In this document: one piece after another, positions 2,052 through 4,447 of the stretch
Layout: every line of letters begins with the position of its first letter
Numbering within the stretch: the stretch's first letter is position 1
Source of the DNA: Olivibacter sitiensis DSM 17696
Lineage (GTDB): Bacteria; Bacteroidota; Bacteroidia; Sphingobacteriales; Sphingobacteriaceae
DNA: 64,000 nucleotides
NCBI RefSeq assembly: GCF_000427965.1
Contig: NZ_ATZA01000026.1
Span: 1-64,000 of the forward strand
Direction of reading: 5' to 3'
Translations under genes and position numbers: made by a program
Notes under the pieces: generated by a model
Told to the model about the DNA's origin: nothing
Database searches by the model: none
The model's input: the letters and a program-made list of their open reading frames with translations, nothing else

Positions 2052-2699
2052 ATGGGAAAAGATAAACTGAGAAAGTTTGCCGAGGTGGCAACCTTTGCCA
2101 ACGTATTGCAACTTGATGAAGGAAAAGTGATGAAAGGGCAGTGGGCCGCGGCTCACTTTGGCAAGGACAAACCCATTGTACTGGAATTGGCATGCGGCAA
2201 AGGAGAATATAGCGTGAATCTTGCTAAGTTATTTCCTGAAAAGAACTTTATTGGAATAGATTATAAGGGAAATAGGATATGGCGTGGTGCGAAGACAGCC
2301 TTGGAAGAAGGGATTCAAAATGTCGCTTTTCTACGGATTCAAATTGAAAACATATTGGACTATTTTTCCAGTGGAGAAGTAGATGAAATCTGGATTACTT
2401 TCCCCGACCCACAGCCGCAAATAAGCCGTGAAAAGAAAAGGTTGACAGCGCCCGCATTCTTAGAGAGATACAAGCAAATCCTGAAGCCCGGAGGTACCGT
2501 CAACTTGAAAACGGATAATGACGGGCTTCATGCCTACACGCTGGAAAAAATACTGGAACTCGATTTACATCTATTGAAAAAGACAGAAGATTTATATCGA
2601 TCGGAAATTGTAAACGAGGTGCTTTCTATCAAAACCTACTATGAGAGGAAGTACTTGGCTAACGAAAAGAATATCAATTATCTCCAGTTCAGTTACTAG
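2052..2699 (+). CDS. trmB: tRNA (guanine-N7-)-methyltransferase
   Basis: TrmB methylates G46 in the tRNA variable loop using S-adenosylmethionine. The 215-residue protein has the usual family length. The SAM-binding motif ELACGKGEYSV lies at about residues 45-55, followed by the acidic FIGIDYKGNR (67-75) and the signature ITFPDPQPQ (115-123), which holds the catalytic Asp. The C-terminal TDNDGLHAYTL is also typical. The gene is monocistronic. It converges on the next gene, and the two stop codons overlap in a shared CTAG at 2696-2699. Confidence 0.96.
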   Translation: MGKDKLRKFAEVATFANVLQLDEGKVMKGQWAAAHFGKDKPIVLELACGKGEYSVNLAKLFPEKNFIGIDYKGNRIWRGAKTALEEGIQNVAFLRIQIENILDYFSSGEVDEIWITFPDPQPQISREKKRLTAPAFLERYKQILKPGGTVNLKTDNDGLHAYTLEKILELDLHLLKKTEDLYRSEIVNEVLSIKTYYERKYLANEKNINYLQFSY

Positions 2700-3658
2700 T
2701 CATTTTTCTTCTTAAATCTGGGCGTGAAACCCACAGGCTTTGATTTGGGCGTGTCGTCTTTTGACGCTTGCTCCCCCTCGCTATTGTCTTCTTTGGACTT
2801 TTGTTCTTGTTCGCTGTCTGCAGCATCGGGTGACTGGCCTTTCCCTGCGCTCTTGAACCGAGGCTTGAAGCCGAGCGGTTTGGCAGGCGTTTCCTGTGTT
2901 TGCTTCGCCGTCGGTTTATCCTCTTCGGGCTTGTCGGTTCCTTGGTTTTCCTCTATATGCTTTTCGGTCTTTGTGACCCCTGCCTTAAAGCGAGGCTTGA
3001 AGCCGAGTGGCTTGGCTTCCTCTGGCTTGGAAGCGGCATTTTCCTCACTGGGCGGCTCCGTTTTCTTTGTTACTCCCGCTTTAAATCTCGGGGTGAATCC
3101 CGTTGGCTTCTTGCCCATTAAGGGCTTTTCTGGACTTTCCTCTGTTGAAGATTCTGCCTTGTCTTTATCGGCAAGCGCGTCTTCTGGTGGTGTTAATGGA
3201 TGTTGATCAGTAGCATCATCTTTTGTATCTGCTTTCTTTAATTTGGCAGCATTGAAACGGGGTTTAAAGCCCGAAGGTTTTGCGCTTGTTTCCCCTTTTT
3301 CAATAATGGGTTCCGTAGTATCGGGATCGGCTGGTTTTGGCAACGAGGTCCCTTTGAAGCGAGGTTTGAACCCAGCTGGTTTCGGAGCTTGTGGAGCGTC
3401 TTTGCTGACATCAGCCTTATCGTCGTTGAGGTTGGGAGTCGTTGTGTGGAGACCTTTCGGTTGGGAAGCGGCCACCGTATCTTCCCTAAGGACATACTGC
3501 TTGCGCAGTTTGTTGAACCAGAACTTCTTGCTGTGGTCAAAGCTCTTTTCGCCCATTAGGGTAAAATGACTCCTGAATTCTTTGTACAAAGAAGGATCAC
3601 TCCTCTCCAACGAGGAAAGGTCTATCTTTTTCTTGAGAAAAAATTCTTCAAAAGTCAT
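2696..3658 (-). CDS. Repeat protein with six KPxGFKPRFK motifs, function unknown
   Basis: A 320-residue, very hydrophilic protein without signal peptide or membrane segment. The first ~60 residues (MTFEEFFLKKKIDLSSLE..., SFDHSKKFWFNKLRKQY) look like a small folded conserved domain. The rest is low-complexity, rich in Lys, Pro, Glu and Asp, and carries six copies of a K-P-x-G-F-[KT]-P-R-F-[KN] motif spaced about 30-45 residues apart; the last forms the C-terminus. In plus coordinates the motifs lie near 3352-3381, 3250-3280, 3080-3108, 2982-3014, 2849-2880 and 2709-2740. The evenly spaced linear motifs suggest a disordered tail binding a repeated partner or nucleic acid; that is inference. It lies downstream of the yebC-like gene on the same strand, 63 nt away. 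Confidence 0.85.
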   Translation of the reverse strand: MTFEEFFLKKKIDLSSLERSDPSLYKEFRSHFTLMGEKSFDHSKKFWFNKLRKQYVLREDTVAASQPKGLHTTTPNLNDDKADVSKDAPQAPKPAGFKPRFKGTSLPKPADPDTTEPIIEKGETSAKPSGFKPRFNAAKLKKADTKDDATDQHPLTPPEDALADKDKAESSTEESPEKPLMGKKPTGFTPRFKAGVTKKTEPPSEENAASKPEEAKPLGFKPRFKAGVTKTEKHIEENQGTDKPEEDKPTAKQTQETPAKPLGFKPRFKSAGKGQSPDAADSEQEQKSKEDNSEGEQASKDDTPKSKPVGFTPRFKKKND

Positions 3659-3677: not shown

Positions 3678-3710
3678 AGCTGCGAGTTGCATAAGGGGCA
3701 ACTCATAGCT
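3678..3710. repeat. Nested palindrome between the repeat-protein gene and the yebC-like gene
   Basis: GAGTTGC (3684-3690) and GCAACTC (3698-3704) form a perfect 7-bp stem, and outside it AGCT (3678-3681) pairs with AGCT (3707-3710). The flanks hold further copies of GAGTT/GAGCT-like words. There is no T-tract, so it looks more like an intergenic palindromic repeat than a terminator. Confidence 0.5.
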
Positions 3711-3721
3711 CAAAACTCAAA

Positions 3722-4447
3722 TTATGCCATGTTGTGATATACAGCTTGCACATCATCGTCTTCCTCAATCTTGTCGATGAGCTTCAAAACATCGGCTGCT
3801 GCTTCCTCGGAAATTTCTGTTTGAGACAAGCTGATACGTTCCAGTTTGGCACTTTTTACTTCAATTCCCTTGTCTTCCAACAATTTTTGCATATTCCCGA
3901 AATCTTCGAAAGAGGTTTGAACTACCACTACGTCGTTGCCTTCTTCGTCCTCTTCTACATAGAGTTCTTCCAGCCCGCCATCTATAAGTTCAAGTTCCAG
4001 TTCTTCCAGATCCAAGTTGTCCGTAGCGGCAAAGCGAAAGATCGATTTGCGCTGGAAAATAAAATCTAGAGAACCCGTCTTTCCGAGCGATCCGCCAGCT
4101 TTACTGAAGTAGCTCCTTATATTGGCCACTGTGCGGTTGGTGTTGTCCGTTGCGGTTTCTATCAATACAGGCACACCGTGCGGGGCATAACCTTCATAAA
4201 CATGTTCTTCGTAGCCTGCGGCGTCTTTTTCCGAAGCGCGCTTAATGGCTGCTTCTATTCTGTCCTTGGGCATATTCACTGCCTTGGCGTTCTGTATGGC
4301 AGTGCGCAAGCGGGAATTTGATTCTGGATGTGGCCCGCCTTCCTTTACTGACATGGCAATTTCTTTGCCTAAGCGAGTGAACTGGACGGCCATCTTAGCC
4401 CAACGTTTAAACTTCCTTTCTTTTCTAAACTCAAATGCTCTTCCCAT
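3722..4447 (-). CDS. YebC/PmpR (TACO1) family protein
   Basis: A 241-residue member of the YebC/TACO1 family, known as DNA-binding regulators and more recently as factors that help ribosomes through difficult stretches. The N-terminal signature is intact in MGRAFEFRKERKFKRWAKMA and in the following FTRLGKEIAMSVKEGG. The middle GYAPHGVPVLIETATDNTNRT and the acidic C-terminal domain ending EDDDVQAVYHNM are also diagnostic. Length is normal. The ATG at 4447 begins exactly at the conserved MGRAFE. It precedes the repeat-protein gene on the minus strand and diverges from pnuC. Confidence 0.93.
   Translation of the reverse strand: MGRAFEFRKERKFKRWAKMAVQFTRLGKEIAMSVKEGGPHPESNSRLRTAIQNAKAVNMPKDRIEAAIKRASEKDAAGYEEHVYEGYAPHGVPVLIETATDNTNRTVANIRSYFSKAGGSLGKTGSLDFIFQRKSIFRFAATDNLDLEELELELIDGGLEELYVEEDEEGNDVVVVQTSFEDFGNMQKLLEDKGIEVKSAKLERISLSQTEISEEAAADVLKLIDKIEEDDDVQAVYHNMA

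Follow-up and report, generated by a model that had tools for sequence, protein, structure and literature searches.

Locus and gene product

In the window, that is, the whole stretch of 64,000 nucleotides that was analysed, an open reading frame with exact coordinates 2696-3658 on the minus strand encodes a product of 320 amino acids. The gene, its upstream neighbour and the folded part of the product are located as follows.

3722..4447, minus strand: yebC (TACO1/YebC family), directly upstream of the motif-protein gene; Pfam PF01709 and PF20772
2696..3658, minus strand: open reading frame of the 320-aa multi-motif protein (head domain and multi-motif tail); orthologues in about 148 of 250 genomes of the order
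3485..3658, minus strand: all-helical N-terminal domain, residues 1-58, with an invariant core around MGEKSFDHSKKFWFNKLR; AlphaFold pLDDT 89

Residues 1-58 form a compact domain, and from residue 61 on the protein is a low-complexity chain of K, E, P, A, T, S and D. The sequence-only reading had described a small N-terminal domain and a charged tail with six K-P-x-G-F-[KT]-P-R-F motifs, and both could be seen in this frame. It had recognised no known family role, which was borne out by searches of Pfam, NCBIfam and, by sequence, solved structures. The 320-aa protein had no Pfam or NCBIfam profile match above the curated cut-off and no TACO1/YebC Pfam domain (TACO1_YebC_N, Transcrip_reg), and GFKPRFK was present in no paper found by full-text search of the literature. 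The multi-motif proteins represent a real family that is under selection and undescribed, and the window protein is probably located in the cytoplasm.

The gene is convergent with trmB (plus strand, ending at 2699), and since the motif-protein gene ends at 2696 the two overlap in the palindrome CTAG, where the stop codons share bases. The gap between yebC and the motif-protein gene contains a 7-bp tandem repeat, AACTCAA, in about 3 copies (3700-3721).

The motif array

Six copies of the motif are found in the tail, all on the minus strand.

3353..3382, minus strand: motif 1, KPAGFKPRFK, residues 93-102
3251..3280, minus strand: motif 2, KPSGFKPRFN, residues 127-136
3080..3109, minus strand: motif 3, KPTGFTPRFK, residues 184-193
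2984..3013, minus strand: motif 4, KPLGFKPRFK, residues 216-225
2852..2881, minus strand: motif 5, KPLGFKPRFK, residues 260-269
2711..2740, minus strand: motif 6, KPVGFTPRFK, residues 307-316

The six are near-identical, as had been claimed, with the corrections that motif 2 ends in N and not in K and that x stands for A, S, T, L, L and V in turn. The last motif had been placed at the very C-terminus; it is near-terminal and stops four residues short of the end. The motif glycines lie at residues 96, 130, 187, 219, 263 and 310, giving spacings of 34, 57, 32, 44 and 47 aa. In 100,000 shuffles of the tail composition GFxPRF occurred at a rate of 0.00012 per shuffle, with a maximum of 1, against the 6 observed. 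A degenerate DNA pattern for GF[K/T/N/Q]PRF matched six times in the 5.05 Mb of the bacterium's own genome, all within the motif-protein gene, while the reversed pattern used as control gave 1 match.

All aromatic residues (12/12 F, Y and W) and all arginines (6/6) of residues 61-320 fall within the motifs. A single motif contains two Phe, one Arg and two or three Lys and is stiffened by Pro, and the linkers are acidic, the net charge of the tail being near zero (+2 in the window protein, median -1). In the full-length AlphaFold model the tail forms no secondary structure and its pLDDT is low, with slightly higher confidence at the motifs. The tail has the sequence features of a multivalent short-linear-motif array, a short motif recurring along a disordered chain and being conserved above its linkers.

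Distribution and motif number

A single-sequence search gave strong matches to the N-terminal domain (E below 1e-15) in about 148 of the 250 genomes sampled from the order. Named relatives include Sphingobacterium, Rhinopithecimicrobium, Desertivirga, Arcticibacter and Solitalea, together with metagenome-assembled genomes labelled Daejeonella, Pedobacter and Mucilaginibacter. The number of motifs per protein ranged from 2 to 10 in 72 of 75 orthologues and reached 14 in one; the two Solitalea proteins have just one degenerate copy, GYKPLF, close to their C-terminus. On the Pedobacter/Daejeonella side KPAYKPRF takes the place of KPxGFKPRF. In Sphingobacterium rhinopitheci (L033, 4357-5931) an in-frame tandem unit of 129 bp is present in 12.3 copies that are 97% matching. 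This is a recent expansion of the tail, and part of the variation in motif number comes from recent tandem duplication.

One genus, g3, accounts for most of the listed genomes in which no strong match was obtained. In none of the seven g3 genomes examined (L130-L134, L136, L137) and none of the three g5 genomes examined (L135, L138, L139) does the gene follow yebC, which is itself intact; mostly unrelated genes stand downstream of it at these loci. Weak single-sequence matches in g3 (E 0.01-0.9) were considered as divergent copies and rejected, since the seven yebC loci lack the gene and a broader profile found none in the g3 genomes sampled by that search. The gene is therefore taken as absent from g3.

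Selection on motifs and linkers

Between the six window copies synonymous sites are saturated (pS 0.97), and the codons of the fixed K, P, G, F, P, R and F show a pN of 0.025. Tandem Repeats Finder detected no motif-sized array in the window gene; this, together with the saturated synonymous sites, indicates that the motif copies are old. In 41 orthologue pairs of equal motif number pN/pS was 0.11 for the motifs, 0.20 for the domain and 0.63 for the linkers, where the location of motifs by pattern favours conserved copies and the high pS at those codons reflects the time elapsed. The profile of 398 copies from 75 orthologues gave the consensus K-P-[AT]-G-F-K-P-R-F-K-A-G-x-T, with the core positions G, F, K, P, R, F and K fixed at 84-99%. 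F follows PR in 98% of copies; at the aromatic position of the motif 91% of copies have F and 9% have Y. In the linkers of the same orthologues F makes up 0.1% and R 0.3% of residues, Y and W are at 0.0%, and D+E together reach 19%. The contrast between conserved motifs and variable linkers, asserted from the single sequence, was supported by these measures.

The sequence-only reading had held that a motif count and sequence not conserved in orthologues would point to drift of a low-complexity region. The count does vary (2-10, up to 14); the sequence is conserved across the named Sphingobacteriaceae, and low-complexity drift is therefore excluded. That the motifs are functionless by-products of recent tandem duplication and such drift is scarcely credible: clearly recent tandem copies do exist, in Sphingobacterium rhinopitheci with its 97% matching units and in some other relatives, and one genus has no gene at all, but the window copies are frozen in protein despite saturated synonymous sites, form no detectable motif-sized array, and the motifs of orthologues change more slowly than the folded domain.

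The same data bear on a quite improbable role as a condensate scaffold, in which the motifs would act as stickers and the linkers as spacers, and the tail would mainly self-associate or co-condense. The confinement of aromatic residues and Arg to spaced motifs between acidic linkers is in agreement with this, and condensation of Rho in Bacteroides thetaiotaomicron is governed by a disordered region that contains short conserved stretches (PMC13269538). Sticker composition would, however, call for a motif sequence far less fixed than the one observed (pN 0.025 at the fixed codons), and some relatives have one or two copies alone.

The N-terminal domain

The domain is modelled as five short helices (AlphaFold), is basic (net charge +5) and is conserved within the order and in other Bacteroidia families. 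No significant match in the PDB was found by sequence or by fold; the best Foldseek hit had an E of 3.9, and the best VIA-align hit had a Z of 2.4 (rmsd 3.3, 52 residues aligned). When 395 genomes of the class were searched with profiles, the 58-residue domain was found in several further families, with K10, I12, F46, N49 and R52 invariant in the relatives. Among 198 genomes across the phylum, the search beyond the class gave one weak match (E 0.005); the first-look filter of these searches may miss distant members, so that absence from other groups is unproven. Seven divergent relatives had no match in Pfam and 25 domain sequences none in NCBIfam.

Relatives outside the order share with the window protein this same domain, for which no family name was found, but most of them are 60-90 aa long with no repetitive tail, in contrast to the long motif tail of the window protein. 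In one family, f2 (L092-L095, L116, L117, L120, L149), the same head is combined with another repeated basic/proline motif, e.g. PPPSVKKLPLKAKPVI and KAPPLKRPIMKPK. The motif has been replaced in f2 on a conserved scaffold, and the design of a head with a repeated basic/proline motif between linkers recurs with different letters. As relatives outside the order are either tail-less or carry another motif, GFKPRF can be regarded as a lineage-specific solution.

A basic head followed by motifs rich in K and R could also point to binding of DNA or the nucleoid by a protein whose multi-motif tail is basic. This is improbable, as the acidic linkers bring the net charge of the tail to about zero, no known fold was matched, and chromosome biology is not indicated by the gene neighbours.

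Gene neighbourhood

Of the 88 loci read within the order, 81 have yebC as the immediate upstream neighbour on the same strand; some of the remaining seven lie at short contig ends or have little flanking sequence. The gap between the two genes has a median of 120 nt and is below 30 nt in 23 of the 81 loci, with a 1-nt overlap in some. It is probable that yebC is the partner gene and belongs to the same transcription unit. A search for yebC in ten genomes of the window protein's family gave one match each. Two differing yebC paralogues, of the MGRAFEFRK and the MAGHSKWANI type, were seen in one genome (G250; L140, L141).

The linkage was observed only in this family of bacteria. The gene usually found upstream of yebC is SDR epimerase/dehydrogenase-like; at the Solitalea loci and at two more distant ones the motif-protein gene adjoins this gene directly, with no yebC. 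Other neighbours elsewhere include a dephospho-CoA-kinase-like gene. The neighbours in f2 look like obgE on the upstream side and an M16 peptidase gene on the downstream side, and at one further locus (L103) EF-Ts-like and pyrH-like genes follow, all these names being read from sequence. A general link to translation was considered from the yebC, obgE and EF-Ts neighbourhoods and is weakened by the SDR epimerase and other neighbours. The translation flavour of the neighbourhood is suggestive, not strong.

The neighbourhood also bears on the main rival reading, itself rather unlikely, in which the motifs would be short linear motifs docking into a pocket of one hub, such as a chaperone, a polymerase or an enzyme, and the tail would cluster hubs around the head. 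Peptides that dock into a protein pocket usually show such a pattern, ten residues kept almost invariant while linkers and copy number vary, and the fixed Gly, the Pro and the paired Phe suggest a defined bound shape. However, the genomic context indicates no partner besides YebC, and no second protein encoded by the bacterium's own genome carries the motif, so that such a hub would have one motif-bearing client.

Proposed function

The tail is probably a multi-point "grabber", because its motifs were kept by selection while the linkers drifted. Tentatively, we favour a cytoplasmic tether over the other readings. The small helical N-terminal domain would dock on one partner, while the disordered tail, an array of near-identical basic-aromatic motifs in acidic linkers free of aromatic residues and Arg, would bind an abundant or repeated surface by avidity. 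This surface would most likely be RNA or the ribosome, and the protein may work beside YebC in translation. We infer the binding itself, its avidity, the target and the joint work with YebC. As targets, RNA or the ribosome would be likeliest, ahead of a protein hub, self-condensation and DNA.

A tether is favoured by motif residues that are frozen while linkers drift and synonymous sites are saturated, and by a motif number that varies and can grow by tandem duplication, as expected of additive copies. The position of yebC immediately upstream on the same strand (81/88 loci), the f2 head following an obgE-like gene and the L103 copy near an EF-Ts-like gene point in the same direction. Against RNA or the ribosome stand the near-zero charge of the tail, which is atypical of an RNA clamp, and the fact that no RNA-binding domain was recognised. 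The argument from neighbourhood is weak, because the yebC linkage was observed in one lineage alone and other neighbours are found elsewhere. YebC does not need the motif protein, since one genus keeps yebC with no such gene. In f2 other basic/proline motifs take the place of GFKPRF, which makes an rRNA site of high specificity and universal conservation unlikely.

Comparison with known systems

Disordered tails that bear arrays of conserved short motifs are common among eukaryotic proteins, and few have been described in bacteria. The present array offers a clean signal: its motifs are frozen, its linkers drift and its copy number changes. The orphan family to which it belongs extends over several Bacteroidia families; the same head carries another motif in another lineage and is tightly linked to a translation-factor gene in its own. 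The question can easily be tested, as one synthetic decapeptide may suffice to retrieve the partner.

The TACO1/YebC translation factors (PMC12234827, PMC11990639) are encoded by the adjacent same-strand gene in nearly all relatives of this bacterial family. They are not homologous to the 320-aa protein, which has no TACO1/YebC domain, and are possible functional partners of it.

The disordered region of Rho (PMC13269538) is likewise from the Bacteroidota and charged, and it keeps its composition while its sequence drifts except in short motif-like stretches. Rho differs in being a transcription termination factor with few motifs, whereas here a small orphan domain carries a near-identical array; the two are likened by description.

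In proline-rich antimicrobial peptides the ribosome-binding core is YLPRP, present in Onc112 as KPPYLPRP, and an analogue with YKPRP in its place still competed for ribosome binding (PMC8950706). KPAYKPRF, the form of the Pedobacter/Daejeonella side, superficially resembles KPPYLPRP of Onc112. Peptides of the Onc112 type are, however, secreted animal defence molecules, and the motif protein has Phe in place of the last Pro (98% of copies), mostly Phe as the aromatic residue and Gly before it. The motif was accordingly rejected as a peptide core of this kind (Y-L-P-R-P or Y-x-P-R-P), whose defining last Pro it does not have, and is kept as a lead only. By analogy, each GFKPRF or YKPRF might be a home-made ribosome-binding peptide, with the tail tuning stalled or idle ribosomes together with YebC. 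This idea is very improbable; if it were true, many motif copies would be offered near the peptidyl-transferase centre or the exit tunnel.
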